From Hydractinia symbiolongicarpus (lineage: Eukaryota > Cnidaria > Hydrozoa > Anthoathecata > Hydractiniidae): a stretch of 64,000 nucleotides of DNA. Positions 43,376 to 64,000 of this stretch are shown here, one piece after another. The position numbers were made by a program, and so were the translations under genes. How positions within the stretch are numbered: the stretch's first letter is position 1; each line of letters starts with the position of its first letter. The notes beneath the pieces were generated by a model. That model was not told the DNA's origin and did not search any database. It saw nothing but the letters and a program-made list of their open reading frames with translations. The stretch spans positions 15,991,001 through 16,055,000 of the forward strand of contig NC_079875.1 of assembly GCF_029227915.1 (NCBI RefSeq), given 5' to 3'.

Positions 43376-43424
43376 ATGACTGCCATCATTTGGTTGCTAA
43401 TCATCATTCCATTCTGTGCTGCAG
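43376..43424 (+). CDS. Receptor exon 1: signal peptide
   Basis: MTAIIWLLIIIPFCAA, a short, strongly hydrophobic leader ending in small residues, then one base (G) before GTATGC. The ATG follows an acceptor-like TTTCTTTAG by three bases, suggesting an untranslated upstream exon. Confidence 0.8.
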
Positions 43425-46400
43425 GTATGCGTTGTTACTGTAAAGTTTGCAGTTGTTTTCATCTATGAGAGAAGCAGGATTACCGGGACAGAAGCACCAG
43501 AGAGGACAGGAGCACCAGAGAGACGGGAATATAAGTGTTGGAATATTGCAATGTGGCTACTATTCTCATTCTAATGTTACAGTGTACAGTCGTGGTGTAT
43601 ATTTAAGATCACTTAACTAATTTTACACAAGAGAATAATAATCACTCATTATTAGAAAAAAACTTATAAAAAATTACCTGGTCTAATAAAAAACCAAATA
43701 GGAAATGAACAAATAAACGAACCATTGGTATGAACATAACCTGAATTCGGATTCGCCTGATTCAATCATTTTTACTGGCTGCAATATTTTTGCTTAAATT
43801 CTTTAGAGTTAGAAAGTTCTTTTCTTTAGAACTTTGCGATTTGAAAGCAGATGGCATGTACCAAGATCCACACAATTGCAATGGATTCATAGAATGTTTA
43901 AATTATGAAACTACAGAGTGGAATTGTCCTCGTCCTGATTTGTTTTTTGATCCAGTCTTACAAACATGCACCAATTTTAAATTTCCTGGTTGCGAAGAAG
44001 AGCAAGGTTAGAGAAAAATATCAATTTAAGACGCAATAAATTGTCCTGCAGAAATAATTTCCCCAACGTTAAAAGTTACAAACCAAAATGAATATGTAAA
44101 TGCAAATAAATTATAGATTCAAGCAATAAAGGGAATTGACTTGTCATATTCGTATATTCTCAACTTTGAGATATCAAAGGCTATCCATGCAAAAAAGAAT
44201 TGGATTTTCCATCCAGCAGTGCTCAGATTAGAAGGTGGTCAGGAATAGACTTCAATCGCGAAACCTTGCCGGCGAAAAAATAGTGAAAATTCGAGGTTCT
44301 TTAAAAATATCATCGTATTTTAACTTTTAACATCTATGTTGTGTTTGTACAGCACGATGCTCTACTGCCTACTAAAATAGTGATTATTAGAATGGGTTTG
44401 TTTACTATTTCAGTTACCATTGTGTTTTAACACGAGAATGCAAAAAATGAAAAGATTAGACTTACATAGAATTTTGGTCCTACCATTAACATTTGATCCT
44501 ACTTTTGGCTCCTTTAGTAACTGATAATTAGTCTTCTTCTTAACCAGATCCATTTAATCTTTCTTAGTCTGCCTGAAGCTTGGGCGTATCCCATTTCGCA
44601 TGTCAATTCTTTCATTTGCACAGTTATAACTGCTAATAACTGCTTATACCTGCTTATACATGTCTATATCACCTCCATAGTCATTATTGATCTTTCTAGA
44701 AGTTCGGCATGCTTTATATTACAAATCAGTGGATGGTAACATCAAATGTATTAGGAATGTCAGTTCAACTGTGGTAAAATCACATCCTTTGGGTTGTTGC
44801 TCTATCAATGAGAAAGTACGACACCACAAGGGAGATATTTTGTACTGGTACAAGGGAAAAGCAAGTGAAAACTGCTTTAAAATCCAAACTGGTTATTTTG
44901 CCTTTATCCCTACACTATTAGGTACGTTCTACTTTTAGAAGGTAGTGTAATTTTCACATATTTGATATATATGTATATATATGCACAAATCGTATGACTT
45001 TATCAATATGTAATTATGAAATAATAAGCTATACACTTCGTCAAAACTTTAGAATGCACTGTTTTTTTTCCAATTGAGGTTCATTTTTGCTATTTTCTTT
45101 CGTTAAGATAACCTTGGCTTACTATCTTGTGAACTACTTCTCAACTTATGTTACAGCATCTTTTTTACATTGGCTATAACATTCAAGCTTGAGGTTTAAA
45201 TTGTGATGGACTTTAGGCGCACAGTGTCTAAATGGAGGCTTGTATAATAGGAATATGCAGGTATCTAGGTTATAAAATAAAGACTTTAAAGGAAGTAACC
45301 AGGACCTATTGTTATAAATAAAAACGCAATTTAATATCTTAGGTGACTGCACAAACATGCTTGCTGATGTTTGTGTCAACGATCAAGCAAATAAATTTGA
45401 AATTGTATCAAAATGCCGACAAGGTTTCTCAAGGTTAAATTCTGGTATGTGCGTAAGTTAGATCGAACGTTACTAAGCAATTTCGTATGTTAGTGTTTTG
45501 TAAATAGTTACGATGAACAATTTTTTATATAAAAAATAAACATGTAACTGAATTTCAATTACTTTTAATTTTTTCTTAATTTTAGTTACCTGCATGAGGC
45601 AAGGTGGGGTTTCTTTTTTAATATTACCACATACTTTATTATATATATATGTAGTAATTACTAAGGTTTGAAATGCGTAAATAGAAAAAAAGTTTATTTT
45701 GTTCTCCAGCCCGCTGTTACAGTCCTCCTCACAAAAAAACTTTGACATCTTTTTACCCTTCCAAATTGCATTGCATTTTTATGAAAAAAATATTTTACGA
45801 AATATCTACTATTAATTTCAAATTTTACTTTATTATAAAAACTTTATTTACTTTCAGTAAAAATAGTTTCATCTTAAAGGCGAAAAAAAACTTTCTCAGC
45901 CTTTTATATTACGTCATCCAATTCGTCACCTAACAATCAGAAATGTTTTAGAAATTTACTTCTGTTCTATTTTTACAGTCGATGTAATATAAAACTAAAA
46001 ACAACGGAGTTATTGAATACTTACACAATTTGTGTTCCAAAGCGCAGTAGTACAGTACAGTTAATCCCAATATATCTAGCTCGTGTGAAGTGCCTATTCT
46101 ACAACCATATATGTAATGTCTAGGCTAAAAAACAACTGCTTTCCAGAAGTCAAAACAAAATGCTGTTTTCCCAGCTATTATTTGTGCTGGAAAACACTTT
46201 CATCTTAAATATACTGAGGATTTTTGTTAGGCAAATCTTTTGCGTCTTCGTTACCTGGTCTTCTTCCTCGTTTGGCATTATACCATGTACCAGCGATGTT
46301 AACATATAACCATGTTAGCACCATTTTGCATCATAATTACATGAAATAAATTATACTTAATCGTTAGAAGAGTCAATTAGTTTTTTGGCCAAGATATAAT

Positions 46401-49400
46401 TTACTGCACTGTTGTCATTTTGAGTAAAATCCAAAAAGAACACACAGTTAGTCTTTTGTTATATCTCGCTCTTATCCTAATACGCATGCTTACCATGCAC
46501 ACTCCTAAACAAGAAATTTTATTTCCGATTATCTTGCGAACAACTTTAATGCCGCATTTTTAAGTATGGTACGACGGTAATGTCTCATGTAATTTATGTT
46601 TTAATTGTCTTTAATGTTGTGGTCTCTTAAGAGTCACATTTTTTTTGCTGGTGATAGTTTCCAAGTTTAAATTTTAGCGTTTATTTTTATAGTTGCCCTA
46701 TGGAACAAAGATCACTGCTTATTAAAACCTGTTGAGAAAAAAAGAGAAAATTGTTGTAACCTAAATTTGAAGTGGTATATGCGAATGAATAGAATATACA
46801 ATCAAAATGGATTATGCTGGTCAATTGCAGGCGACACGTCGCAAATACTTTTGCAGCGTGCAAAAGACGGTATCATATTTTAATATAATAAGTTCTTCTG
46901 TCAAATATGTCTAGTATCTACTGCTCATTTAACTTTCTGTGCATTCAAAAACGGGTGCATAATGTGTCCCTCCCCTTAACGCCTGCCCTGCAACCGCTTG
47001 ACACATTAAGCTACTCAAGGTTGCAATGCATCAGTATAACTTTAGGTATTTTAAGTTAACCATAGGAAATGCAGCACAAGAATTATGCGACGTCGAGGCT
47101 TTCAAAAGAAGAATTAACACATGATTAAGTTATAGATAACATAGAATATCTAGTTTTATAAGAATAGATAAAATCTTTTGTAAGCTAGAGTTATAGTGTT
47201 CACTCATCATTCGTTTCTAAAATCAGCCTTCCCACATGTGTTAAAATTTGGCGATTATTAAAACTTTCCAACCATGATAATTCTTTTTCAAGTTTAGATA
47301 AGAAATGTCATCGATTTACTGGAAACAGTGAACATTTTTTGACATCGTTTAACGATCCTTATTACAGATGCTTCACTAATGACAGCCAAACAACTCTAAA
47401 AAGTTGTGGATCACAATCAGTAAAAGTGTGTACGTACTCTTAATTAATTTTGAATCCAGCGTATATTGGTTTCTCTATTCATTTTATGTATTTCTTACTT
47501 AAGAAATGCGAAAAACAAAGATGACATTTACAGTTCCTGTTCCTAATGTTGTCAATGTCCTTAAAAGGAGGTCTTGTTTCATGTAGAATTTCCATTTGAG
47601 CTTCAGACGTCGTGTAAAAACAGCAACCAATCATTAAGCAATCCTTTAGTTTATAAAGTTATATTCATGCTGAAAGCTAAGCAGATAAGGCTGGTTCAAA
47701 CTTCTATAGCCTGCTGCTAGGTCTTGAACCAGCGAATATCCATAAAAAAACAAAAGCCTCAACGCAGGCCAATCAGTCAGTAAAGAATAGAAAATTAAAT
47801 TAAATTATGGATTAATGTTATTTGTATATCACTTGTTTCTGTTATTTAGATGCATGTGAAGATGCATTCGACGTTCAGACAAAACCTACACTTAGAATTA
47901 AGCCACAAGGTATACGTCAATACAATATTGATATTAGTTTCTTACAATACAAATTCTTAACTGCTGTAATTACAACAGATGCAAAAAATGCTGCATAATA
48001 CACAAATGGAATAAAGTGTCCTGAAATTTATTTTAGATACATTTAATTTAAATTACCAAAGATTTTAGAACAATAATTTTGTGGTTTCGATTATTTTAAA
48101 TATTGTTTCCTTGATGTAATGTTCCATAATTTTATAATGTTATAGCGACACAATTTTAATGATTTTTTTGTTTTAAATTATTTTTATTGTCAACTGAAAT
48201 AAGAATATATTTAAGTACGTCGATTAAATACTTTATACACTGTCATTGAACATATTATTTCTGTTTGTCTCTTCAGTATTCGTATTTTTGCTGAACGTTT
48301 ATCATTTCTTGACCATAGTAGTTTAGTAGCGCTTTTTCAGGGTTGGAGATAATTTTGGTAAAAATTGGCCTTGAATTAGAACTAAAGTCCACAAATAATG
48401 TATTGGAAATATTACTGTTAAATTGTGCAACTCTTAGATTTTTGCACATAATTTTTAAAGACCAAATACATTTTTTCAATTGTTTAACTATTCTATGAGG
48501 TGTCTGATTATTAAGTGTATTTTTGTGGAGGAGGTATTTAATTTGAAATTAACTTTTCATAATATAACCTTTTATAACAGACAAAAATTAGAAATTGGGT
48601 TGTGATTATGTTAACACATAAACAGTTTTATTTCGACTCGAATTCTACATGGCCAATGTTGATCTAGCTACTAATTTGTTTCTGGCAAGGATATTTCTGG
48701 CAACTATTGGTTTGACTTAAAGCCTATTTTAAAAGTGATGGTTATTAGAAAAAAGCGTTAAAAACATGTAGGAACTCATCGAATTTTTTTTTCAAAGGAG
48801 GCGTTTAAGAAAAAAGGCTTTTAGTGGAAACATTACGTATTATTCGTGGCGTTAGAAACATAAAATCACCTTGTCTTTAGAATTTGTCTTCCTTTATAAA
48901 CAAGCTGACAACACAAGTAATTGCGTGATCCGAAATTTACAAAGCTTTGAAATATCATCGCCCTTCTCATTGCAATGCTGTTATGGCAATTCAAAGATGA
49001 AAGTTTTCTCAAATGGAAACGTGATAAATAGACAAGAATATTTACACGTTACCCCAGAGAGCCTTTTAAAATTCAGCCGTAAGTAACTAAATTTTAATCT
49101 GGTTTATGATAAAAATCAACTTATCTTGATTGTTAAAAGTGGTTATCAGTTGCTACTAACTGCTGTAAATTACAGACTGACTAGCAGAAAATATTTGCAA
49201 GAATATGACGTCATTTTTGTTCCAAATGACGTCATAATAATGCTTTTATACCTTGATCATCTTTACTTTCAATAATCAACATTCGTACCCTGTTTAATGA
49301 CATTCGAATTAATACTGCCTTATGGCGTCATTGTATTAGTTGTGTTTTTTTTACCTAGAATGATTTTGTATGAATTATTTATACTATTAATTAAAATCAG

Positions 49401-52400
49401 CTGTCTGGGAAAATTAAAAGACGTCTTTTAATTAACGTTATGTTTTATCATGCTATTTATCAGCAAATATATCCACAAGGTATGCATGCATTCATAACCT
49501 TAAGTGGATATAAATGTAGGTCCATTTTTAAGCAGCGTTTAATGGATCGTAAATATGTTAAGAATTGAATTCTTTTTAGAGATACACCAAACTGCATTCA
49601 GAATCTTAGATGATGGTATTCTTCGTGTTGTAAACTTTGCGAACTGGTATAACTTCAGATACAATAAATACAAGAAAACGATTCATGTCGAGTCATTCAA
49701 TGCCAGTAGTCAGATTAACTTAATGACACTTCAATGCCCTCTTACAGTTAGTAAGTTCACAGCTACTCTTATATAACATCAGTTCTGTAATTTATGTTGA
49801 CAATAAGAGAGATTATTCATTTATAATTGCAAGGACAAACACTTATTTCCATCAAATTAATCCTATAAAAGTTTGCTAAAATCTAATAATTTACTTCGCA
49901 GACTTAACTCAAACTGGATCATGGTATGTTTTTGGATCAAGTTCGTATATTTATGTAAAAGAACCTTTGACATTCGATCAAGCTGAAAAGTATTGTGCAA
50001 TATTCAGTTCAACTCTCACTAGTATCACAAACTACTTAGAACACGTAGCAATCAATCAAATTGTTACGAGTCTAGAATTTTGGATTGGCTTAGTAAAGCG
50101 TAGTAAAGGTTGGGAATGGTTAAATGGTGAAAATGTTAGTAGTGAGTACATTCCCAAGTATGCGTCTCACATATGTGGTGCTGGTAACTCATCAACATTG
50201 ATGTTGCACAGCGATGACTGTATGAAAATGAAATCATTCATTTGCAAGCGTGCTATAAATGGTATGAGATTTTTTGCATGGAATTGTTAATATGCACGAT
50301 AAATAATTTTGTATGTGTACTTGTTGAATAATGGAATGGTGTTTCATTTGCTAAGCAGAAACAACTGAATAGGTCCTAAGGCCTTACATTAATGTTCACG
50401 TTTGTACAATTTTGAAATCTATGTAGGTAGTTATGGATAAACATTTTGTGTGCTGTCTTACAGCATAATAACAATATTTCAATGTATAAATCTCGAATAC
50501 GGATGTTTTTAAACTCGATTTGACTAATCTAATCTAAGATGCAGTATATAGACCTAAAATAAATATGTACTTTACCTCTTATAGACTCACAAACAAACAT
50601 ATGTGGCCGCAGTTGGATTCCACACCTTTCTGGTTGTTTTGCCTTGTTTAAGCATAACAAATCGTGGACAGAGGGTCGTAACTTTTGTCAACTGGCTGGT
50701 GGTCGTTTAGCGGTTCCCAACACTGAATGTGAGAAAAACTTTATAGACGCCATTGCGAAGAAATATAAACGAAAATATTGGATTGGTTTATCTCGTAAAG
50801 GAAACAGTAGTGTTTTCACGTCTGAAGATTCATCCAAAGTATACAAGCTAGATCCTACCTTAGATCTAAATTTTACAACTTCAGAACAACAATATGTGTA
50901 CATTGATTCGAGCAGGAATTATGAATGGAAAATTTCTGTATTTAGTTCGTCTGAAACATATTATTCATTATGTGAAAAACGTGAGTTTGTGGGGTTTCAT
51001 TTTGCGTTTATATATTTTGGTTCATGTAAAATGTATTTTTCTTTGTCTTTAATTTAATACTATATTGGTGTTATTTTTGTATTTCTTTGTACTTCTAGAT
51101 CTAAATGCGACAAATTCGAAAAGAAATAACATCAGTGAAACACCGCAACCAGATAAAGGTACAAAGCAAAGCTACATAAGGATTGCCTTTATGTTTTCAC
51201 CGAAAATACATTACTTCAATGTTTACATTTAGAACATAAATATTGGATTGCTTACCAGAATAATTCTTACTTATTTGTCAATGAGAATGTCACTTGGTTT
51301 CAAGCGGAAAGAATATGCAGAGACTTGAGCAGTAACCTAACTAGCGTATTGACTGCAGATGAAGAAGACTTTCTGGTCAACGTTTTGTCGAAACATACTC
51401 CTATTTGGCTTGGCTATGTTAAAGGAATGTCTAGCTGGACTGATGGTAAAATATTTGAACAAAATTTTTGGGCAACCACAAATACATCTGATGCAGGGAA
51501 AATTTTTTTGATTAAAACGAAATGTGGTATGGTATATGAAAGGAATGAAAATAAGAATGCGTTTGTATGTAAAAGAATAAGAGGTAAGGTTGCCACTAAA
51601 TCCATCCGAATATTTGGAATATCCATATTTTTCACGTTAAAAAATTGAAATTTACACAAAGTTACGAAACAAAAAACTGTGATTGATATTAGACTGATTG
51701 ATTTGTAAAAAAACACTCTTAATGACATGTTGGTTTTCATCTAGAAAATTACCTGCTGGGCGACAAGAAAACATGTTCGACATGGTCACACAATCTTGGT
51801 TATTGCTACTACATGTCTGAAATTCATACAACAAAAACAATGGCAAAATATCTTTGCATAGCAGGTGGTGGCAGTCTTCTTGATGTAGAAAACGAATGTG
51901 AAAAGCAGTTTGTTTCGTCAAATACATTCTGGGTTAAAGCATCAGCAGACAGTGTGGATTTAAAGAGGAAATTTGTTTGTCGCAAACCTGCAGGTGTGTT
52001 TACTTTCATAATTTCGGATTTGCCATCTTAATCATTAGCAGATATTAAATAAACAATCTGTTTTTCCTTTCTAGCTAAGACAGCAATTCTGGGGAGTGAA
52101 AATAGTACTGAAGAAACTGGTGGCCATTATAAGCTAGGTATATCTTATTTTTAAAAAAACGTTGTGGCTACCTGTGGATAATGTTGCTTACTTATTTTAG
52201 CTTTTGGTTTTTAAACAATCGCTATAAATTTTCCTCCAAACCTTTGCAAATAAAAAAAGATTGATATCTGCAAGTTTTATTATTCTCTTTTTAGATAACG
52301 GCTGGTTTGTCTATCAAAACTCCCAATACTTTTTTGCGAGACTAGCTCTAAACAAAAGTGCATCGCAACAGCTGTGTGAAGCGTTAGGAGGCGCGTTACC

Positions 52401-55400
52401 CTCTATTACAACAATAAGTATGTTGAACTTTGTGCTTAACGCGAGTGGCAGCGAAAGTATATTTTGGACTGATTTAGCAAACTCGACAAAACATCAGCAC
52501 TCATTATGGGTTCTTGGAATACCTGATTATGGGAATGATCAAGACATTATGGCGACAAGGTGTGGTTTAACATCATCAACTAATATTAAAACTAATGCAC
52601 AGGTTTGCCAAAGAGGTGAGTATATTTTCTTCGCAGTAAATACAGAACGCGAACAGGACAGTCACCATGATATATAAAATAAAGGAATAAAAATATGGTA
52701 TGAAAATATGGAGCAGCGTTGGCGAATAGCACCGGTTGAGAAGACTATAGACTTGTTTGTCTCATTTGCTCAGATGAGACCACTTTAAATAAACGCAATT
52801 TAAATTTGATATTCTTTTCTCACAGAATACTAAATTCATAGTATTACTGAAAAATAGAAGTTGGAGAGTAAAAGAATATGAATCTCATTAACATTTATTT
52901 CATTTAATTTTTAGTAGTATCTACATGCACATTTTTACCATATTCATACCGTATCTTGATAATTATGTTTATTTTCAACAGGTAACAAACCTGAATATAT
53001 AACTCACTGTGTACCGCCATCTTTGACATACAATTCCTCTTGTTATACTCTAATTCCACTGGATATGACATGGCAGCATGCTGAACTAGTTTGCAATAAT
53101 ATAAAGGCGAGTGTATTAACGTTACCGACGAGACACGAATGGCATTACCTTCTGGGGAATTTTAAGGAAACAACAGTTACTGGTTCTTGGTTGGGTATGT
53201 GTGACGCCATTATATTTTTGATGAAGACACGTATACATATTATGTTACTAAAATATATTATATTAGATCTGAAACAAGAACTTTACTTGATTAAAATAAG
53301 ATTTAGAAACAAGGAAGATATTTTTTCTTCGCAAAAAATTGCACGTTCGACTAGAACTATGTGAAAAGTAAGACAAAAACAAAGATGTCCTTAGTTTTTA
53401 ACTGAATCTAAGCTCAATTGTTTTTATAAACTACACTGCTAATGCAGAATTGTACGATATTTGAATCACCTTAATCCCATTTTTTATCTTCTTCAAAGCA
53501 TCTTCGTCAGAACAGCGCAACAAAAGTAATCTGTGTTTATATCTGGACGCTTTTGGAAAGACTGGTAACATATCATGTCAACTCAATATGAAGTTTATTT
53601 GCAAGAAAAAGATGCACAGCATACTTGGTGCTACTTTAGGTAGATATTTTGCAAAATCATTGAAAAAATCTAGGAAAAAAATTTATATGGAATAAACTAA
53701 TACTTGCATACTTCACCAGCATTCATTTGCTTTTAAAGTGATTAGCTAATTACCTGGACTGGCAATCATATCACTGAATTTTTTCCTTTTTCTAAGCTAA
53801 TTTTTTTTGTATTGACAAAGGTCGCAAAACTAGTTTGGTTTCTCCAAACATTTCGCAAATGGTCTAACAGAAAAAAGTTAAAAAAAGACTGCCAACGCTT
53901 TCTCCTACTACTACTGTTTACAAATATTATATTTAAGAGCCAACAACAACACGCTCAACAGGACCAGGGATATCAATTAAAACACAGCTTCCCTCTGATG
54001 TCGGTAAGTCTTTAAGGTAGAAGAATATTCACCAGATCAGATGATCAGATTTATGAATAAGTTACATGTTCTTACAATGACCACCTTTTTTTAAAATTAC
54101 ACACATTTGCATCTGTGCCAAATGAATGAAGCTGTAACAAAAATTATGGTGCGCAATGTTCCTTCTGATGCATAAACTTTCCAAGATGTATTTCGCAAAA
54201 AATAGCAGCCTTGAAGTTCGAGCTTTCGCAGAAAAAAGCGCGTGTGTTTTAATGTAAACAAAGACGTTTTAGGTATAATGCGAAGAAAGCAATTCCATTC
54301 TTAGACAAGTAAGACTTGTTCTTCTTCTCACTCATGCAAAACTAAAGCTAAAATAAATTGCATTAAATATACTTATACATAAGTCTCTAATTTAAAACAG
54401 TGGGCACGCGCAAACAAAATGCTCTTGAGCTGCGCTATAGCAGAATATGCAGTCAAATGGAAACGAGCCTTTATACACTAGCACAAAAAAACAAAACAAA
54501 AATAATGTAAATTTGAATAAATAAATTTAATTTATGGAAATATGTTTTGAAATAAATTTTTGAACGTTATTTTTGAAAAACCAGAAAGCATGCATGTCAC
54601 AAAATAAACATTTTCACTGTTTTCCCCACAACGTGAAACAGCTAAGTTTAACATCTAATTCACGAAGATGACGGCACTTAACATAGGTCTCCCCTACAAT
54701 ACGCATGTGCTGTAAGTAAAAACTGCCGTATTCTGTCGCTTCGCTGCTTTGCGTAAGGTCTACTATTATGGAAAGGTGGTGGTTATTGAGGAGCTATAGG
54801 TTTTTGCAATAATTTTATATTGCCTAATTTTATACCTATCTTTCTTTCTGTGTAACAAGAATATTCCGGAAATATACAAACTCTATGCTTAGGTCAGTGG
54901 TCAACTTGGTCGCCATGGTTACCTTGTGATGTTCTTTGTGGTTCGGGCAATCAAATTCAAACACGTGAATGCCTGAATAATCAAGGCAGAAAGATTGACC
55001 CAGAGTTATGTACAGGAAAAGCAAGAAAAGAGAAAAATTGTTTGGGCTTTGGTGACTGTTCAAAATTTTATTCTGCTGGCGTTAGTCAAAGTTGTGCAGA
55101 TGTTTGTGAAAGCTTAGGTAACAAGATACATCTAATGCAGCTACTAGAGTCAACCATAGTTTAATTCAGCTTTCCCGTATTTATTCATATTTTTTATCGC
55201 TTTTACTCACGTTTTTGTCCATAACGACTCTGCAAAAGGTTTGGGAAATATTAGGTGTAAAAGTAGTTAGAAAAACGAACGCATTTATAATAACATCAAT
55301 GACGTCATGTTTATTTAAAAAAAAATATTTATCTTATCAAGGAAATGTGCATTAGAAATTTCATGTTTGTAGCTTTTCCGGACCCCTATATCCTTCTTTT

Positions 55401-58400
55401 GGCGCAAGAAGCTCCGCTAGTTAAAACGAAACACTGATTTTTTAAAGATATTGGTTACTATAATAAATCTTTTACTATCATTAATTAATCACTTATTGTT
55501 TTGCAATTTTCATATTCTTTAGGAAAAATTTGTGACAAACGAGTTCAAACCGGAGATACAAATGAGTTATTTCGCGCGACTGGTTACCAGTGCTCCAACA
55601 ACATTTCAAGGGTTTTATGGACAGGTGGATTTCAACCTTATATTGACATCAACACTTATTTGTGTGTTGGTTACATGAAACTGCCAAATGAAATCAACTG
55701 TGAAGTAAAACCAAGTAAACCGGATTTTAGAAGAATATGTAAATGTATTAACCAAGGTAGGTAAACTGTGTATTTAGCAATAAAAGTTTAAATTTTCACT
55801 TTATTCTACTTTTAGTTATAATGCAAGGACCTGGATAAGTTGTTCTTGGAATATATATTCAGACTTTTCATGGTTTAAGGATTTTTTTATGGATTTTGAT
55901 AACCAGATAACAAAAAGGTATTAAATTTTGGCGGTAATGTAATTTGGCGAAAAGCAAAGATAAATAACCTTAGCTTTTTGGCGCGAATGCATTATAATCG
56001 TATTTTCTTATCAATCAGATTTTTTAATATCCACAGAGAGTGCAAAATAAGTTTTAAGGGGATTTTAATTTGGGGGATTTTTGAAAAAACCGCTAAATCC
56101 GCTAAAATTTCTTCCCTTACGCTAAATTATAGGTAGATCTAATTTTGTATCAAATATTTTGCTAGATGATGTAGGTATGACAACGTGGACACCATGGAGC
56201 AAATGTTCCTCAACGTGTGGTGGTACATGTTTTCGCAGGAGGACATGCGCACTAAGCTTTGATGGGCCTTGTTCCGCAAATAGAAAAGAAGTAAAGAAAT
56301 GTGGTCATTCGGATTGTCCAGGTGAGACTTTTGTATCAATGGTTATCAACGTAATGTCTCTGTGTCAAAATGCAGTAAGAAAAGTTTTCTCAAAACACTA
56401 AGTTTTGCATGTTTTCATGACCATTGGACCTAAAATTTTTGTTGACTTTTCCAAATTTACCTTAGTTCGATCACTTTTGACTTCTTTTGTTATTTTTTTG
56501 TGGTGACTATTAAACCTATGGACTTTTCCATGGGCAGACGGTTACTCTCCATCATAACAACTGTTGTTTCTCCTTGAGACAAAGATTGCAGCTGTGAATA
56601 GCGAGAGTACGAGTCCTGTAGATTTTTATTAGGCGAATTGACAGGCCAACTAGTTTTTTATAGGTTTTGATATATTTATTGGCTTTCTAATGCTATTCGA
56701 ATTAAATTAAACTATTTCCTCACTGTATGTTTTTAAGTTCACGGTGAGTGGACAGCCTGGGCTGCTTGGACGCGCTGTAATCAAACTTGTGGTCACGGTG
56801 TACAAAGTAGAAATCGCAGCTGCTCAAATCCTTTCCCATCCCTTGGCGGTGAGAAATGTTTTGGCGAAGAGAAACAATACCAAGCCTGTTACGTTACCTG
56901 CACTGGTATGTATACTAAGTATTTTTGGTACGTGTCTGTTATGATTTCCTGTTTTACTGACACAAGCATTACCCAGCCAGCAAGGGGAAAGAATGTCAGT
57001 TAGGCGGTAAAAGAAAAGGGAATGCGCAGTCCATGAACAAGTTTGTGTAACATTACTTTTTCGGAGTTTGCAATAAATTTAGTCCCTAAAGAATTTTAAA
57101 GAACTGAACCTGTTAAGAATTACTAAGCAAAAAATAATAAATTTTTTAAGGAATAATTTGTGTGTATACAACCCGAGAATACATAATTTGAATAAAAATA
57201 ACACAATGTGTTTTACCTAAATGATTTTGCGCTGCTGACCATGTTACACATGCAAGTTATAATACAGTGGACTCTCCATTACTCGAACTCTCACGGCCAA
57301 TCAGAAATCGTTCGAGTTATTGTGCGGATCGAGTTTAAAGGGTTTCGAGTTATGGAGGGCCAACTGTCCATTCTAACTCAACTTTTCACAAATACACCGT
57401 AACATGGCAGCATTTTCTTTTATTTTCTGAATCGACAGTTAATATTATTATTAATTTTTTTCCAAACGTGTAGTTAATGGAAGTTGGTCAACGTGGACAG
57501 CATGGTCTGCTTGCAACAAACCGTGTGGTCATGGCAATTATGTTCGAACAAGAACTTGCACTAACCCATTGCCCTTATATGGTGGTTGCATTTGCAAAGG
57601 AGTGTCAAAAGAAGAAACACCATGTGGGACCGCTACCTGCCCAAGTACGTAAGCAATGTGATAGATGTTTGGAAGTTGTAAGTTTACTAAAAAAATTGAC
57701 AAGGTTTATCAAATATTCCTATTAACGTTTTGGTAGCGTATTTTTTTTACAAAGCTCCTTCAGACTTTGTTAGTGAATCGGCAATTAGACATATTGTTTT
57801 TTCCGAGAAAATAATTTTAAAAATCGTTAGTGTAGTTGTAAAGTAGTCGTGGCAAAATAGTGTTTTGCAAAAATAAAAAAATAATATTGAAGTTGACATT
57901 ACCAAAATATTGCAAAATATAACATTTCGTTTGAAAATCTCGGGTATATTTTATTAAATTTTGTGGTATTTATTTTTCCCAACCCTTTAAGCAAATTAGG
58001 ATTATTGATTTAAAAAGTTTATGTCTAATTCCCAGTGCAATTTCTCATCATTGAATACTATTTTAGAAGTGACGGTGCAAGTTTCATGTAAGCTTGACAG
58101 AAAATATACATTCGATTTAACACACGGTAAAATTCCATTCGCAAAGTTGGAAGATGAAATACGTCACGAAGTAAGTTTTGTACGCACACCTATGTTTGTT
58201 AAAGGGACTACGGAACTGCTGTTGGTTTTCGACTTTAGTGACTTACACGAAAGTCGAGCTGATGGCGCAGAAAAACAAAAATTGCTATTTTTTCGGCATG
58301 TATGTAATTTACAGACTCGAACATCTAGAATTTTTATCCTCTACAGCCTCGGTCATGTTTTCATCCAGAATGAGTCTTGCTGAAATATTTCTTTGTAATA

Positions 58401-61400
58401 ACTTTTCAAAAAAAAATATTGAACCAGCAAGGAAAGTGCGCTGATCTGTTCATTGTGCAAAACGCGGTTGCCGGATTTTTAATATGTGCGCGGGGTATAC
58501 GGAATGTGCGCATGTTAACCGGTTCGTAGCCCCTTTAATGTCGTTACTAGCTACCTCTTGAATAAACCTTTATAATTGAAGTTAAGCAATTTGAGTGACT
58601 GAACTGAAACTGGAAAACGTGAGCAACACAACTTATAGCTTTTCTTTTCCGTTGGTTCTTAATTCCTGTCACTTCTCTGTGATTACTAGATAATGAGCGA
58701 CAACACTATTGGAAATGTGGAAAAGGTTACCTTGTTAAAAGCATCGTATGTTATTTCTTAAATTTTAAAATAGTGTTAGCATATAGCTAGGTTACATTCG
58801 TGTGATAGTTTATATTGTATGATTTATACTCGTTTAATAACATATTTAACTAGTAATAAGCCTGTGAAAAAATCCACAGGAATTTGCCTGCAACTTTGTC
58901 TTACAGACGTATGGTCAGGTATTATGATATAAATAGTCATCGCGTTTCGTATGTTTTTCCCGCATTAGTATTTTGTGCGTCTTTGCTTTCCTTTTGGCTT
59001 TAAGTAATAAAATTAGAACTGCAGGGTGTACGAAAAACTGCTGTGGGATGCCATTTTGAACATACAGACAAAATACAGATATAAGAGATAGTGATTTCTT
59101 TCATTCTATAAATAATTGGTTATTCTAGTATTGCTTTTGCAATGATTAAAGGCTTTTCAGGAAAAAGTAAAAATTCTATAAATGACTTACCTGAACTTGC
59201 GAAAATGTTATTTTTTATGAAACTGTTCCACGTGCGAAAAGATAACTTCCAGGGAGCTTTTACAGAGTTAAAGTTGTTTTATCAGTAGCGTATTATATTG
59301 TAGACCCGGAAGCATTGACGTGGTGTTCTCCATTGAATTCACGAAACTGAATAATTTTGAACTCTTGTCGCTACAAGACAGCATAGATGTGAATCATGCA
59401 ATCGGAAAAATACCCATCGTTCCAAATACCATAGCTTCATTTAAAGCTGATAAAGGTAATTAAATTAAAATTCTAGAATGTTCCTAGCATCATGAAACGG
59501 AAATGGTTGTAATAATTCCATATGTTTTACAGAAAAAAAGTTTTTTGTGCGGAAGATATCAGATATTCTTGTAATAACATTTTACGAAAAATATTTTTGA
59601 AAAATATTTCAAATTAATTTTATATCGTTATGACTTTGCTCTCAATACAAGCTTAATACTTAATTATCTCAGTACTTGATAAAGAAAAAATGACGATTTT
59701 GAGCACTTTACCGTAAATCAATTAAATTCCACGCTTTATCAATTTTATACAATTTTAAATAAAGTGGTCTTTCCGTCTTTTTATTTAAAATTAACCCATA
59801 GCAGCAAATACAGAACGTTATATTTTTATAAACAAGAAAATTGCAAATGCCAAATCTTTTCACCATAGTTGCTGATATATAATCCTTCCCCCAAGATATC
59901 TTAAAAAATTAAAGAGTTAGCAGAGTATATTCAATTTTTAGTTCCTACCTCACCGCCAAGCAATATCACAATACGAACTTCATCGCCAAATTCGCTAACC
60001 ATATTATGGAAAGACGTCAACATACGTGGTTTGGAGATAACATCTTATATCCTGTTCTATCGAGAAAAATCCAAGGTCTCAAGCATGTATGATACATTGA
60101 GTACGAACCAAACATCCGCGGTTCTTTCTGGTTTAAAGGCTGGAACAAGATATGTGGTGAGAATATTGGCCAGCACCAAATCAGGAAATGGTATCGCCTC
60201 CAAGGAAATGGTTGTTCAAACAGAAGAAGATGGTAGGAATACTAGTAGCATGCTTGTGATTATTGACTGTTAACAAATTTTTGAAAATTTGGCTTTATTT
60301 ATTTTAAAAATAATATTTCGTCGGAAAACATTATTATCGAACGAAATATTTCGTTCGTACATATGTTGTTGGAATAAATTTTTCCTAGCTTAGAGGATAT
60401 TCGATACTGTTTTCTTTAAAAAAATAAACGTTTTTGCTTGAGCCTAAAATCATTTTCTATATTTCTTGTTTATAAAAATATAAAAATTATACCACAAATG
60501 TTAGACCTAAAACATTTTTGGCAATTGGTGCATTTATATGCGACAATTAAAAGAATTCTTCTTCACTTTTGGCGCAATTTATAAATATTTTAATGACGAC
60601 TTTCAAATCATTGCTCTTATATATAACACTGGTCATGGTTGATGTTCTCAAATATGTTTTAGTTCCAAGTCTTACGCCTGGTAATGTTACCGGTATCAGC
60701 ATATCTTTTGACAAGATATTCATCCAATGGAAAAGAGTGGACGAAGGTGCCATGAATGGAGTTTTAATTGGTTATGATATAATTCTTGATGAAAGTATGA
60801 ACAGGAAGAAAATATTTTTCCCGCATGAAAATACGAGTGTTATATTAGACAAGTTAAAGGGTGATACTCAATATGTTATCTCGGTGTGTGCGGTCACGAA
60901 GGCTGGCTCCGGACCGTGTGGAGTTACACAAGTGCGAACAAAAACTTCAGGTTTGTCGTTGAAGGATATTTATCAATCTTTACTTGTTTACTGTTCATGT
61001 TGGTAACTCCTCACTTCAGAAACTAAGTTCTAATTTTCGAGTTATTATATTGGCACATCTCGAATAAATTTTTACTGCAATTAAAATAATTTGAGTTTAG
61101 TAAAAATACCAGAAAAACAAGTCATCGTGTTTCTTGAGCTTTGTACTAAATCCTATCCTTATCATCCCTACATTACTAAATTAAAAAAAAAACAGCACAT
61201 GAGGTTTTTGTCTTACACTATGAATCTGGGTAACTTCACAAGTAAACACATGATTCGCTAGAAGTGTGTCGTAATAACAAGAGTAAAAACTACGATGTGC
61301 ACCATAAAACAATGCACTAGTCCGTGCCTTAAAAAGGTTTCACAGATTGAAGAAATGAATAGTAATTGCATTCATTTTTATACCTTAGCACCAACTGAAT

Positions 61401-64000
61401 CGCCGATGAATCTTACAGTAGTGAGGTACTTACACAATAGCCTTTCAATACAGTGGAGACCAATACCAGCATATGCATTGAACGGAGAACTCATCGGTTA
61501 TAAGGTACTATATAAGCCGATGGATACTCACGAAAAGGCCACAAGGTATTTAAGACTAGATGTTGCACCATGGCAGACATATGCGAAGTTAAATATTTTG
61601 TTACCTAATTCAAAGTACATGATACATGTGCTAGGTATTAACGCATACGGGGATGGCATTGGAGCATCAGTTACTGCCAGTAAGTTTTCGTTTAAACTTT
61701 CCTATGGCAGACACTACGTATTTTTTTCTCCTAATAAGATCGTGAAGGAATTATATTGACTAAATTTTTAAAACTGATTACTTTAGAAACTTGTAAATGT
61801 CCAGAAGTTATCTACAGTAACTATTACATAACTAAGCCATATACAACTCGTCTAAGAATGTTTTTTGATGGAATATTTCCCACAGTTATAAGAGATATGT
61901 TCACATTTGCTTGTGGGTTTTGTCCTGATGCCAACCAGAACACAACTACTGTTGACTTGACGTCAAATGGTAAATATGAATATGCCAGTAAATCAACGCT
62001 AGAGAGAGTTGTGGAAGATATTGATGATTTTACGCAATTAAGTTTCCCACTTTCAGCAAGTGTGAAAGCCAAAGATTCGATGGACATGGTTTACGTACCT
62101 ATATTGAAATATCCGGGTTCTTTATTTATTATTCGCCAGTACGACATACATGAACACGTGATGCACGTTGTGGTACAAATTCTTCAACTATGGCCCCTGT
62201 TTGTGATAAATTTTATGTTGATCGTGTTTGTGGGAGCTGCCATTTGGCTTTTGGTGAGTTTTCACAGTTATGTTGTTAATTTTCAGAATGTGATTAAAGT
62301 TGAGCAACAACATTAAAAAAGTCGTATTTATTTCATACTTTTCAGGATGTAACAGGTAGTGGAAAAAATCATTTTTCCTTAAACAAATGGGATGGTATAA
62401 GAGAGGGTTGGTACTATGCCTATGTTACACAAACTACCATAGGGTATGTCTGCGTGAATCTTTTTTGTTTGCTACTTTATTTTTGACACCATTCTCGTTG
62501 CCGTGGCGTCGTGGTAGTATTAGGTACAAAATGCGACACTTGAATACTCGCTTTCTTAACAGTTATTTTTAAGAAAAGCTTTCTTTTCTAGAACGTTCTG
62601 AAAATGTTTGCAAGAGATGTTGTGCCAGTTGGTTGTTAATGTGTAGCGGAAGGGGTAAAATGGCGCATTATGAAGGCAACTCAATTAAGAAAAATAAAAA
62701 TAGAAAAGCGAAGAGTGTTTTATTGATCAGTGTATTGTGGTGCAAGATTATATTACCACCACAAGGAACAAAATAATATTTACGTTACCCTTTGCGGCCT
62801 TAACCAATGTTTTTCTGGTGATATTGACACACAAGTGTGTGTTTTTGTTTAGATATGGTGACTTTACCCCCAAGAGGTTTCTTTCGAGGTGTTTTGCGAT
62901 CGGGTGGATGTTTCTAAGCATTATTATGTCATCAGTGTTGTTAGTAGGCGCACTTACCACAGCTTTTACCACTTCTGCGTTGGAGGAGGTACATACCATA
63001 TATGGAAGGAAGGTAATTTTTTCTCTCAAAGCTTGTTAAAAATTTTAGGATATAAAAGTGGTAAACTGGGCGCTTATAAAAAACGAAAGACAATGGAAAA
63101 TGGAGCACTAAGGTAGAGTGTCACTTTTTTTAAACTTTATTTTTTAGATTGCTGCGTTGTCTGGCTCTTTTGAAGAAAAGTTAGCTACGTTGAGAAATGG
63201 AAAGATTAACAAAAGTACGGTCAATTATTCTATTTATAAACTCATGCCTGCTAAAGTATTATGCCATATGCCTTATTATATATTAATAAATTATATATTT
63301 TTTGCATGGAGGAAATGCAGTGTTAAAGCCGGCAAATCAATTCTTGAAATTTTTAAGGGTGGGTGAGTGATAGGAAATCAATGTGAATAGTCGTAGATCT
63401 ACATTGTTCTAGGTGTTGTTTTTGCATAACAAACATTTCAAAAGTCGTTTAAACCAAAATAAGGGTGGGGCATGGCTTTTTGCCCAACCCTTTGTCTTCC
63501 CCGGATTGTGTCTTTGTATTTGTATCTATGAATACTACCGGTTAATTCTTATTCTATTTAAACATTCAAATATACTACGACCTTATTCAGGAAACAAAAA
63601 CAAAAACAATTTGATAATAAAAAATGAGAGTATTCAATCTGCCTCCCTAAAATACTTCCTCGAAAACTAGCATCCACCTTCCAAGTCGGCTTATAAGAAT
63701 TAAAATAAATAATCTAAGAACTAAAAACCGATTGAAATAACCTTATTTTCTAGATAAAACTTATTCAACAGTATCATCTTTGGTTAATTCACTTGTTAAC
63801 CATGAAGTCGATGGTATTCTATTAGATGCTTATACTTCAGGCTCATACAAATCCTTTTTAAAACAAGCTGGTGTTCAAGAAACGAGCTTAGTGGAATTTC
63901 CAAGAACTTATGGTGTTGTATTATCTGGTGGCCTAGCACGAGTAAATGAGGAAGTCCGTGATTATGTAGCTTCAAATGAAGACAAAATATTAAAAGTTCT
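43376..64000 (+). CDS. Giant lectin/TSP1/FN3 receptor with iGluR-like core and K+-channel filter (3' end outside window)
   Basis: Thirty-four exons, all joining in phase, give at least 2168 residues: 43376-43424, 43830-44006, 44700-44921, 45343-45444, 47298-47429, 47850-47909, 48881-49078, 49580-49750, 49902-50261, 50585-50980, 51099-51158, 51233-51583, 51745-51993, 52075-52137, 52295-52615, 52982-53194, 53499-53639, 53938-54003, 54893-55117, 55523-55756, 56166-56321, 56738-56905, 57474-57644, 58067-58170, 58690-58745, 59304-59455, 59942-60232, 60663-60950, 61389-61679, 61787-62253, 62346-62443, 62853-63012, 63148-63214, 63754-64000 onward. Order: signal peptide, ChtBD2, Cys-rich modules, six CTLDs, four TSP1, SEA, three FN3, S1 lobe, M1, pore TTIGYGD, M3, S2 lobe. 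It is likely a plasma-membrane ligand-gated potassium channel with an adhesive ectodomain (inference). Exon 53938-54003 is the least certain; two fused gene models cannot be excluded without transcripts. Confidence 0.82.
43485..43527. repeat. Short purine-rich tandem repeat in receptor intron 1
   Basis: Two units resembling GGACAGAAGCACCAGAGA follow each other. It is GC-richer than the surroundings; no function seen. Confidence 0.6.
43830..44006 (+). CDS. Receptor exon 2: peritrophin-A chitin-binding domain
   Basis: About 59 residues with six cysteines in the ChtBD2 spacing: C-DLKADGMYQDPHN-C-NGFIE-C, then WNC, a PDLFFDPVLQTC block and a final PGC. The YQDPHNC..F.EC and LFFDP motifs are diagnostic. 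Known members bind chitin or glycans. Symmetric phase 1-1 exon. Confidence 0.9.
44700..45444 (+). CDS. Receptor exons 3-4: unrecognised Cys-rich modules
   Basis: Exon 44700-44921 (74 residues) has CIRN, PLGCCS and NCF around hydrophilic stretches; it resembles exon 48881-49078 in the LYK..D, C.IRN and L.CC..N.K positions, so it is probably an internally duplicated module. Exon 45343-45444 (34 residues) has three cysteines (CTNM, DVCVN, SKCRQGF) but fits no EGF pattern exactly. Both are phase 1-1. Families not identified. Confidence 0.7.
47298..47909 (+). CDS. Receptor exons 5-6: degenerate ChtBD2-like and linker
   Basis: Exon 47298-47429 reads CHRFTGNSEHF, DPYYRCF and LKSCGSQSV, loosely like a chitin-binding domain that has lost cysteines. 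The donor is GTACGT at 47430 after GTGT. Exon 47850-47909 is a 20-residue linker (YACEDAFDV). Phases fit; the domain name is a guess. Confidence 0.6.
47545..47790 (-). mobile_element. tRNA-derived SINE-like element, copy 2 (intronic)
   Basis: Shares the CATTTGAGCTTCAGA block and a TGTCAATGTCCT block with 39545-39760. The minus strand carries a GGTTCAAGACC box B-like motif near 47745. It lies in the intron between receptor exons 5 and 6. Confidence 0.45.
48881..49750 (+). CDS. Receptor exons 7-8: repeat of the Cys-rich module and a spacer
   Basis: Exon 48881-49078 (66 residues) parallels exon 3: FLYKQAD, NCVIRN, LQCCYGNSK. Exon 49580-49750 (57 residues) has one cysteine near its end (LQCPLTV) and IHQTAFRILDDG at the start; it may be the second half of the same fold. 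Both phase 1-1, and both contain no stop. Families unknown. Confidence 0.7.
49902..50261 (+). CDS. Receptor exon 9: C-type lectin-like domain 1
   Basis: 120 residues in one phase 1-1 exon. CTLD marks: LTFDQAEKYC, EFWIGLVKRSKGWEWLNG, HICGAG, DDCMKMKSFICK. There is no EPN or QPD and no WND motif, so calcium-dependent sugar binding is unlikely. Confidence 0.88.
50585..50980 (+). CDS. Receptor exon 10: C-type lectin-like domain 2
   Basis: 132 residues, phase 1-1. CGRSWIPHLSGCFALF, KSWTEGRNFCQLAGGRLAVP and KYWIGLS are good first-half CTLD motifs; the second half (YVYIDSSRNYEWK, YYSLCEK) is diverged and lacks the usual WxD..C pair. Its fold is clear, its ligand is not. Confidence 0.85.
51099..51158 (+). 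CDS. Receptor exon 11: linker
   Basis: Twenty polar residues (NATNSKRNN, ETPQPD) joining two lectin-like domains; phase 1-1. Confidence 0.65.
51233..51583 (+). CDS. Receptor exon 12: C-type lectin-like domain 3
   Basis: 117 residues: VTWFQAERICRDLSSNLTSV, IWLGYVKGMSSWTDG, KCGMVY, NAFVCKR. Complete CTLD pattern without the calcium/sugar-site motifs. Phase 1-1. Confidence 0.88.
51745..51993 (+). CDS. Receptor exon 13: shortened C-type lectin-like domain 4
   Basis: 83 residues: CSTWSHNLGYCYYMSEI, TMAKYLCIAGGGSLLDV, NTFWVKAS, RKFVCRKP. The middle (WIGL to CG loop) is missing compared with its neighbours, so this is a minimal or degenerate CTLD. Phase 1-1 and open, so still likely translated. 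Confidence 0.8.
52075..52137 (+). CDS. Receptor exon 14: linker
   Basis: Twenty-one residues (LGSENSTEETGG), phase 1-1, between lectin-like domains 4 and 5. Confidence 0.6.
   Translation, partial: LRQQFWGVKIVLKKLVAIIS
52295..52615 (+). CDS. Receptor exon 15: C-type lectin-like domain 5
   Basis: 107 residues: NKSASQQLCEALGGALPSI, SIFWTDLA, TRCGLTSS, AQVCQR. Phase 1-1. The WIGL block is altered to FWTDL; no calcium-site motifs. Confidence 0.85.
52982..53639 (+). CDS. Receptor exons 16-17: C-type lectin-like domain 6, split
   Basis: Exons 52982-53194 and 53499-53639 together make one CTLD: CVPPSLTYNSSCYTLI, MTWQHAELVCNNI, SWL, then NLCLYLDAFGKTGNISC and MKFICKK. It is the only one of the six split by an intron, placed just after the SWLG position. 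Confidence 0.8.
53938..54003 (+). CDS. Receptor exon 18 (tentative): Thr/Pro-rich linker
   Basis: PTTTRSTGPGISIKTQLPSD between the lectin and thrombospondin regions. Acceptor ATTATATTTAAG is weak, donor GTAAGT is strong, and phases (1-1) fit both neighbours, which would also join directly to each other without it. Confidence 0.4.
54893..55756 (+). CDS. Receptor exons 19-20: thrombospondin type 1 repeat 1 plus Cys-rich module
   Basis: Exon 54893-55117: QWSTWSPWLPCDVLCGSG then TRECLNN, a typical TSP1 (WxxWxxW, CxxxCGxG), ending in CADVCESLG. Exon 55523-55756 continues GKICDKRV, YQCSNN, YLCVGY, RRICKC, so the SCADVC..RICKC span is a separate Cys module of about 95 residues split by the intron; its family was not recognised. 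Phases 1-1. Confidence 0.85.
56166..56321 (+). CDS. Receptor exon 21: thrombospondin type 1 repeat 2
   Basis: TTWTPWSKCSSTCGG, RRRTCAL, CGHSDCP: a compact TSP1 with all six cysteines, phase 1-1. Related repeats bind glycosaminoglycans and other matrix partners. Confidence 0.9.
56738..56905 (+). CDS. Receptor exon 22: thrombospondin type 1 repeat 3
   Basis: GEWTAWAAWTRCNQTCGHG, RNRSCSNP, CYVTC: complete TSP1 with the WxxWxxW core and CGHG. Phase 1-1. Confidence 0.9.
57264..57362. mobile_element. Small palindromic element in receptor intron 22
   Basis: CAGTGGACTCTCCATTACTCG on the left is partly mirrored by TTTCGAGTTATGGAGG on the right, about 100 bp in all. The CAGT..ACTCTC start resembles ends of pogo/Tigger-like elements; family assignment is a guess. 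Confidence 0.4.
57474..57644 (+). CDS. Receptor exon 23: thrombospondin type 1 repeat 4
   Basis: GSWSTWTAWSACNKPCGHG, RTRTCTNP, CGTATCP, with extra cysteines in GGCICKG. Exon ends in A at phase 1 and continues into the SEA domain. Confidence 0.88.
58067..59455 (+). CDS. Receptor exons 24-26: SEA domain
   Basis: Exons 58067-58170, 58690-58745 and 59304-59455 join in phases 0 and 2 to one domain of about 104 residues: YTFDLTHGKIPFAKLEDEI, then PGSIDVVFSIEF. The length, the central helix and the PGSxxV strand match SEA domains; G-S in that position is the autoproteolysis site of mucin and adhesion-receptor SEA domains. It is the first part of the gene where introns leave phase 1. Confidence 0.75.
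58849..59115 (+). repeat. Interspersed hairpin-headed repeat, copy C (in receptor intron 25)
   Basis: AACTAGTAATAAGCCTGTG, loop, CACAGG, TTTGCCTGC, and later the GCTGTGGGATGCCATTTTGA block also found near 14841. This links the hairpin head and that block as parts of one element. Confidence 0.5.
59942..60232 (+). CDS. Receptor exon 27: fibronectin type III domain 1
   Basis: 97 residues: PPSNITIRTSSPNSLTILWK, ITSYILFYRE, LKAGTRYVVRILASTKSGNG, MVVQT. The Trp in strand B, the Tyr in C and the LxxxTxYxVRV pattern are all present. Phase 1-1. Confidence 0.9.
60338..60357. repeat. Perfect 20-bp palindrome
   Basis: CGAACGAAATATTTCGTTCG, in the intron between FN3 domains 1 and 2. No gene context known. 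Confidence 0.85.
60663..60950 (+). CDS. Receptor exon 28: fibronectin type III domain 2
   Basis: 96 residues: PGNVTGISISFDKIFIQWK, LIGYDIIL, LKGDTQYVISVCAVTKAGSG. Phase 1-1. The donor is GTTTGT, weaker than most in this gene. Confidence 0.88.
61389..61679 (+). CDS. Receptor exon 29: fibronectin type III domain 3
   Basis: 97 residues: ESPMNLTVVRYLHNSLSIQW, LIGYKVLYKP, LPNSKYMIHVLGINAYGDG. Ends in A before GTAAGT (phase 1) and joins the receptor core. Confidence 0.9.
61787..62253 (+). CDS. Receptor exon 30: S1-like ligand-binding lobe and M1 helix
   Basis: About 156 residues (1823-1978). It starts with CKCPEVIYSNYY, then FDGIFPTVIRDMF, where ionotropic glutamate receptors have GYxxDLL, and later VEDIDDFTQLSFPLS and VPILKYPGSLFII, the place of the family's FxxP-to-GxSIL block. 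It ends in a clear membrane helix (LWPLFVINFMLIVFVGAAIW), phase 0. The likeness to iGluR S1 is positional and distant, so the ligand cannot be predicted; two CxxC-type cysteines (CGFC) are unusual. Confidence 0.7.
62346..63012 (+). CDS. Receptor exons 31-32: pore loop with TTIGYGD and M3 helix
   Basis: Exons 62346-62443 and 62853-63012 join inside the filter (GG|A, phase 2). The product reads REGWYYAYVTQTTIGYGDFT, the full pore-helix-plus-filter signature of potassium channels, followed by a membrane helix (FAIGWMFLSIIMSSVLLVGA) and TTAFTTSALEE. Placed between an S1 and an S2 lobe, this is the topology of ionotropic glutamate receptors with a potassium-type filter, as known for bacterial GluR0 and rotifer AvGluR1. 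Confidence 0.85.
63148..64000 (+). CDS. Receptor exons 33-34: S2-like ligand-binding lobe (incomplete)
   Basis: Exons 63148-63214 (IAALSGSFEEKL) and 63754-64000 join in phase 1. Motifs VNHEVDGILLDAYTSGSY and FPRTYGVVLSGGLARVNEEV lie where iGluR S2 lobes have the acidic-residue strand (VDAF..D) and the YGI..PKGS-VNxA segment. The final M4 helix expected of eukaryotic iGluRs is not reached before the window ends. GTACGG is a weak donor; reading through would extend exon 33 to a stop at 63366. Confidence 0.75.

Follow-up and report, generated by a model that had tools for sequence, protein, structure and literature searches.

A Hydractinia gene predicted to join an adhesive ectodomain to a GluR0-like core with a potassium-channel filter

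Results

Exon chain and predicted protein

The DNA analysed here, referred to as the window, is a stretch of 64,000 nucleotides from the marine colonial hydroid Hydractinia symbiolongicarpus (NC_079875.1, referred to below as C1, positions 15,991,001 to 16,055,000, forward strand). From position 43376 onwards it carries a gene predicted to encode a single giant cell-surface protein, in which an adhesive outer part is followed by a channel core. Rebuilt by hand from the DNA, the gene forms a chain of 35 exons on the + strand (43376-64000) that continues past the window end. All 34 introns begin with GT and end with AG, the phases are compatible throughout, and the 2249 residues of the chain contain no stop; 26 of the 35 exons are phase 1 at both ends. 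Of the 62 alternative frames in exons long enough to test, 59 contained a stop. The core, used as a search query, also retrieved P0002, an independently predicted protein of 2389 residues that is listed as encoded by the window. Inside the window P0002 is near-identical to the hand chain, differing by a mini-exon of 6 residues (45586-45603) and by two exon starts, those of the first and second TSP1 domains, each placed 11 residues later (54893 versus 54860, and 56166 versus 56133). Because P0002 was predicted independently and shows the same join, the fusion is not an artefact of the hand chain.

The domain order in P0002 is signal peptide, CBM_14, a region without an assigned domain, lectins, four TSP1 domains with a Cys-rich insert, a SEA-like segment, three FN3 domains, S1-M1-P-M3-S2-M4 and a tail. 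Translation starts in exon 1 (43376-43424), which also encodes the signal peptide (MTAIIWLLIIIPFCAA), seen as a hydropathy peak over residues 1-24, while the chitin-binding peritrophin-A domain CBM_14 occupies exon 2 (43830-44006, phase 1-1, Pfam E 1.4e-8). The region of exons 3-9 and their introns (44700-49750), which holds the mini-exon, encodes ~350 extracellular residues with no family above the Pfam cut-off. C-type lectin-like domains 1 to 3 follow in exon 10 (49902-50261, an open frame with Lectin_C E 2.3e-14), exon 11 (50585-50980, E 2e-13) and exon 13 (51233-51583, E 2.6e-9). Domain 5 lies in exon 16 (52295-52615, E 3.7e-4, alone slightly under the cut-off). Two further domains were read by eye: the short domain 4 in exon 14 (51745-51993) and domain 6, split by an intron between exons 17 and 18 (52982-53194 and 53499-53639). 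Exons 12 (51099-51158), 15 (52075-52137) and 19 (53938-54003) are linkers.

Four TSP1 domains come next, in exon 20 (54893-55117 with the P0002 start, 54860 in the hand chain; TSP_1 E 2e-9), exon 22 (56166-56321, or from 56133 in the hand chain), exon 23 (56738-56905) and exon 24 (57474-57644), the last three likewise matched by Pfam TSP_1. The Cys-rich insert between the first two of these domains is encoded by exon 21 (55523-55756) and is conserved in the paralogues described below. Exons 25-27 (58067-58170, 58690-58745 and 59304-59455), whose phases 1-0, 0-2 and 2-1 fit together, encode a segment with a GSI motif that is kept in P0002 and in the paralogues P0003 and P0004. Pfam SEA is not matched in this segment, either in P0002 or in the hand chain, and the weak match of its profile to the adhesion G-protein-coupled receptor (GPCR) ADGRF1 (E 0.74) is one of two found in the PDB up to E 10. 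Given the motif, the conservation in relatives and the ADGRF1 match, the segment is best named SEA-like. FN3 domains 1 to 3 occupy exon 28 (59942-60232, fn3 E 5.3e-15), exon 29 (60663-60950) and exon 30 (61389-61679), the latter two also matched by Pfam fn3.

In P0002 as a whole, the Pfam cut-off is passed by CBM_14 (one), Lectin_C (five stretches), TSP_1 (four), fn3 (three) and Ion_trans_2. No GAIN/GPS, PKD or seven-transmembrane (7TM) family was found in P0002 with Pfam up to E 1, nor, in P0002, P0003 or P0004 at the same limit, an amino-terminal domain of LIVBP type, which is common though not universal in ionotropic glutamate receptors. A sequence-only reading of the window had described one phase-consistent chain over 43376-64000, with a ChtBD2 domain, four TSP1 and three FN3 domains, and an ectodomain of glycan- and matrix-type modules in place of an LIVBP-type domain; all of this is borne out, ChtBD2 being the CBM_14 domain. 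Its six lectin-like domains stand by exon reading (one short, one split), against five stretches by Pfam, and its SEA domain is retained as SEA-like, the Pfam threshold not being reached. The Cys-rich insert and the region of exons 3-9 were absent from its domain list.

Filter, topology and ligand-binding segments of the core

The core begins with exon 31 (61787-62253), assigned by hydropathy and family alignment to the S1 segment and M1. Exon 32 (62346-62443) encodes the pore helix and the first half of the filter, TTI plus two bases of the first Gly codon, while exon 33 (62853-63012) supplies the last base of that codon, YGD and M3. Spliced across the intron, ACC ATA GG|GT joins AG|A TAT GGT GAC to give T-T-I-G-Y-G-D, in agreement with the filter proposed earlier, and the same codon is split in relatives. 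The motif TT[IL]GYGDF is common to P0002, P0003 and P0004. S2 starts in exon 34 (63148-63214, family alignment) and proceeds through exon 35 (63754-64000, by its profile match to GluR0) past the window; M4 and the tail lie beyond the window end and are present in P0002. Only the signal peptide, M1, M3 and M4 rise above the hydropathy threshold in P0002. Together with the family alignment this gives the topology of an ionotropic glutamate receptor (iGluR), S1-M1-re-entrant P-M3-S2-M4, with the orientation deduced rather than observed.

Ion_trans_2 is matched in P0002 at E 1e-8 (35.3 bits versus a cut-off of 22.5) and is the only family above the Pfam cut-off within the window core. Lig_chan is not reached (E 0.46; the best chimera scores 18.2 bits versus a cut-off of 30.8), and the glutamate-receptor assignment of the core hence rests on S2, topology and family. 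Aligned by hhalign, the three chimeric cores and 17 K+-filter relatives match over 359 columns from S1 to M4 at E 5.6e-35, a value that is largely driven by the pore. S2 was also compared alone with bacterial GluR0. The 16 single-frame relatives described below gave a score of 43.5 (probability 93.8), with 30 column shuffles at or below 17.4, and the three chimeric cores a score of 27.0 (probability 38.1, P 0.00033), with 30 column shuffles at or below 13.9. On this profile evidence S2 is homologous to that of GluR0 independently of the pore. M3 of the core resembles GluR0 M3, and the best of three matches of S2 in the PDB is an ABC-transporter substrate-binding protein (E 0.057). S1 alone was not recognised in profile comparison, and a structural match of S1/S2 to a two-lobed module appeared only with GluR0 rows in the alignment.

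In S1, where the alignment is weak, GluR0 PISVTPER aligns with PLSVNPAK in P0003, PLSSNPSK in P0004 and PLSASVKA in P0002, so that the carboxylate-binding Arg is not kept and Lys or Ala stands at the aligned position. S2 of all three proteins keeps a GS pair, the Asp in GIL[LIV]DAYT, which aligns with the amino-group-binding residue, and the Tyr or Phe in R[TS][YF]GVVLSG; we take these positions to be amino-acid contacts in iGluRs. The contacts are given in part in the covered portion of PMC12226733. With no residue matching the carboxylate-binding Arg in the weak S1 alignment, any ligand bound by the core is probably held differently from glutamate in GluR0.

The proposed glutamate-receptor-like S1-M1-pore-M3-S2 therefore stands in its topology, its S2 and its Ion_trans_2 match, whereas Lig_chan stays under the cut-off and S1 alone is not recognised. 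The anatomy of the window protein as described here is, in our judgement, nearly certain.

A family of chimeric genes in the Hydractinia genome

Two predicted paralogues from the same species, P0003 and P0004 (uncharacterized proteins LOC130633755 and LOC130633709 by their source names), share with P0002 the order lectin, TSP1 with Cys insert, SEA-like, FN3, core. Their cores are 48% (P0003) and 46% (P0004) identical to that of P0002; about half of the core positions differ among the paralogues, while pore helix and M3 are largely conserved. Pfam finds four lectin stretches in P0003 and six in P0004, and no chitin-binding domain in either. P0004 (C1:5.772 Mb) and P0003 (C1:5.808 Mb) are 92% identical in FN3-1, 60% in FN3-3 and 58% in the S1 exons, which suggests gene conversion or recent exon exchange.

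Searching the window's genome with the P0003 core returned 91 exon matches. Taking an S1 exon as a match that begins at query residue 1 or 2, S1 exons of the chimeric type are found at 21 loci, four of the matches being short (48-69 residues): seven on contig C1, six on C8, two on C11, and one each on C4, C6, C9, C10, C12 and C15. A search with the P0003 SEA and FN3 region gave 36 matches, of which 33 lie within ~5.5 kb upstream of cores, at 14 loci, and three elsewhere. FN3 was seen at an additional locus, C8:10.626 Mb, in fetched DNA. FN3 exons hence precede the core at 15 loci in total, 14 of them among the 21 S1 loci and one, C8:27.66 Mb, outside them.

For three distantly related members, on C9, C8 and C15, the upstream DNA (L065, L066 and L067) was fetched, the S1 exons of the C9 and C8 members being only ~26% identical to the query. 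All three show Cys insert, TSP1 repeats, a SEA-like stretch, FN3 and core in order, with TSP1 and FN3 above the Pfam cut-off in each. Only the C9 stretch shows a TSP1 ahead of the insert; in the C8 and C15 stretches the insert is the first recognised exon. A GSV motif stands at the SEA-like position in L065 and L066 and is missing from L067, and Pfam reports nothing in the SEA-like stretch of any of the three. No lectin was seen in the three fetched upstream stretches. On C9, a Ser/Thr-rich, mucin-like open frame of 943 residues (L065:2-2830) lies directly upstream of the TSP1 exons.

The pores of the distant members read TTVGYGD, ATVGYGD and STVGYGD and that of a C1:6.53 Mb member TTLGYGD, with the same split Gly codon in all four. 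The YGD exon is present at all 10 chimera-type loci examined, and the preceding TTxG exon was not identified at two of these, C1:4.80 and C1:24.18 Mb. By these comparisons, the window gene is a member of a conserved hydroid family with an adhesive ectodomain and a GluR0-like core bearing a K+ filter.

The 3' part of the window gene has a near-identical second copy at C1:12.460-12.465 Mb (L039, L047). One stretch of it shows no substitution over 1371 exon sites and eight over 2088 other sites, and an overlapping stretch three over 572 exon sites. The copy is either a recent duplication or an assembly duplicate.

Short relatives with the same core

Lig_chan matched the genome at 51 places. Of these, 21 are covered by 20 fetched stretches, chosen because of a long open frame or unusual profile coverage; another 10 were supplied by the search itself, and the remaining 20 places were left unfetched. 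In the 20 stretches, 19 frames that are 250 residues or longer carry a K+-type filter, which reads GYGD in 18 and GFGD in one. Sixteen are full-length single frames with S1, M1, pore, M3, S2 and M4 and without a long ectodomain, and were used in the alignments; Lig_chan reaches E <=0.01 in all 16, which had been selected by a Lig_chan search. The P0003-core search added three further full-length GYGD frames (L052, L061 and L063), used for the filter check only. Full-length short single-frame genes with a K+ filter thus total 19, again 18 GYGD and one GFGD. The short K+-filter genes (L015-L031, L052, L061, L063) are spread over contigs C4, C5, C6, C7, C11, C12 and C13. Nine of the 10 stretches that came with the search contain canonical iGluR frames, whose pores lack a K+ filter.

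A tree covering the pore and a portion of S2 unites the chimeric cores (100/99) and sets canonical iGluRs apart from GluR0, the chimeras and the K+ types (100/100). This tree, which is pore-driven and has long branches, does not group the K+ types together. Multi-exon K+-filter iGluR-like genes with GFWWAF[IV]SMTTVGYGDRAPKS pores were also observed at L055 (C1:21.98 Mb), which has a long Lys-rich tail, and at L064 (C4:17.49 Mb).

Other features of the window

A single open frame of 1180 residues at 19602-23141 (+) encodes a putative membrane protein, with a Chlam_PMP repeat at 21.0 bits versus a cut-off of 20.6 and transmembrane segments seen by eye. Exons of a subtilisin-like proprotein convertase lie at 26771-36445 (-), comprising a pro-domain slightly under the cut-off, Peptidase_S8 and a P-domain. 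Three near-identical open frames of 98 residues, spaced by ~2.7 kb, occur at 261-554, 2982-3275 and 5610-5903 (-) and may belong to a longer repeat. Also found were a reverse-transcriptase RNase H fragment at 1266-1706 (-) and a tandem array with 2.2 copies of a 427-base unit at 10506-11429.

Discussion

Proposed working of the protein

Chitin-binding, lectin, TSP1 and FN3-type modules are of the types that bind glycans and matrix. In the mechanism we propose, ~1,870 extracellular residues made up of these modules and the SEA-like segment would lead into the GluR0-like core, in which S1 and S2 probably form a bilobed ligand-binding module split around the K+ pore (M1-P-M3), followed by M4 and a cytosolic tail. 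Assembly as a tetramer with a K+-selective pore is to be expected because of the filter and the GluR0 precedent, and pore opening would lead to hyperpolarisation or to a quieter cell. Glycans, matrix, an adjacent cell or a microbe may be the partners bound by the outer part, which could thereby hold the channel at the contact or tune its gating. Furthermore, the SEA-like segment may permit shedding of the outer part.

A single gene, its domain order, the K+-type filter, the homology of S2 to GluR0 and a conserved family are each supported by the sequence; from these we infer the tetramer, K+ conduction, hyperpolarisation, a bound partner and coupling between outer part and pore. That the pore conducts K+ appears likely. 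The full mechanism, a K+-selective receptor channel with an adhesive ectodomain, is favoured with moderate confidence, while coupling of adhesion to gating is a tentative element that we lean somewhat against. A broader scenario in which hydroids possess multigene recognition channels, combining GluR0-type K+ pores with ectodomains of variable lectin/TSP1/SEA/FN3 make-up, in which touching a surface, a microbe or another colony directly hyperpolarises the cell and the clam-shell takes a non-canonical ligand, is more speculative still and on balance unlikely.

Alternative explanations

The join between the two parts is known from genomic sequence and prediction, and the lectin/TSP1 part and the channel part might be separate genes wrongly joined. 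This is very improbable, given that P0002 was predicted independently and that P0003 and P0004 have the same join. The core is also preceded by FN3 exons at 15 loci and by TSP1 at each of the three distant loci fetched, which speaks against a false join too. If the gene is single, the outer part could merely tether a K+ channel gated by a soluble ligand, with adhesion uncoupled from gating, and a core of this plan and filter does occur in single-frame relatives that lack a long ectodomain. The order TSP1, SEA-like, FN3, core is nevertheless kept in the distant C9 and C8 members despite their low S1 identity, which suggests that the whole is constrained, and we regard a mere tether as rather unlikely.

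Two further alternatives concern the core. It could be a non-conducting membrane anchor or assembly module of an adhesion receptor, as delta glutamate receptors can work without ion flow, and the ligand-site Arg is absent in the alignment. Against this, the filter is kept, with pore helix and M3 largely conserved while about half of the core positions differ between paralogues, and a YGD exon at every chimera-type locus examined is not predicted by a loss of conduction; such a non-conducting core is, by a shade, less plausible than the tether. A plain K+ pore with unrelated extracellular loops beneath an adhesive ectodomain, gated mechanically or constitutively open, would agree with the failure to recognise S1 alone and with Ion_trans_2 as the only family above the cut-off in the window core. 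It does not sit well with the match of S2 alone to GluR0 beyond shuffled controls, with the substrate-binding protein as best PDB match of S2, or with an M1-P-M3-M4 order and GluR0-like M3 that fit an iGluR, and is improbable. We retain a K+-selective receptor channel with an adhesive ectodomain as the preferred reading.

Significance

The sequence-only reading is supported in its interpretation, and its observation is confirmed as real and under-stated, since the gene stands in a conserved family beside short relatives of the same core. The gene is not a lone case, as P0003, P0004 and further loci share the plan. The reading's remark that no such protein was known to it agrees with the literature covered: neither such a chimera nor a cnidarian K+-filter iGluR family was found described in the open-access literature, covered by title and abstract opening, with subscription papers and preprints outside this scope. 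With 21 chimeric-core loci, ectodomain exons at 15 loci, and 19 short relatives, the K+-filter state of glutamate receptors would be common in one animal, which would supply numerous natural examples for the long-standing problem of the relation between glutamate receptors and K+ channels. The set of short K+-filter iGluR-like genes is possibly more important than the chimera itself. Our findings suggest that the animal may translate recognition, whether by contact or chemical, straight into electrical signalling; such a direct route from adhesion to inhibition would need no second messenger and is testable in a laboratory animal with genetics.

Comparison with known systems

Polycystin-1 and adhesion GPCRs are analogues in that they, too, join an extended adhesive outer region containing lectin or SEA modules to a membrane part with a signalling role, but that part is TRP-like or 7TM. 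Canonical animal iGluRs (AKDF, NMDA and epsilon) share with the window protein M4 and the S1/S2 topology; unlike them, it has a K+ filter and no amino-terminal LIVBP domain was found in it by Pfam. K+-filter iGluRs named in the covered parts of PMC12332018 and PMC12226733 are GluR0 and AvGluR1, with PMC13335744 and PMC12464821 also covered in part. AvGluR1, from the rotifer Adineta vaga, resembles the window protein as an animal iGluR with a K+-channel signature; compared by description only, it has eukaryotic iGluR architecture, and the covered parts of the same two sources (PMC12332018, PMC12226733) mention no lectin, TSP1, SEA or FN3 part. GluR0, a glutamate-activated and K+-selective bacterial receptor (covered part of PMC12332018), shares the S1-M1-P-M3-S2 plan, the T-x-G-Y-G-D filter, S2 homology and M3. 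It differs in having only two transmembrane domains (PMC12332018, same part), where the window protein has M4 too, in lacking a long ectodomain, and in keeping the Arg of PISVTPER, which has no counterpart in P0002, P0003 or P0004. Among known kinds, the window protein is a variant of the K+-filter glutamate receptor that carries an adhesive ectodomain.
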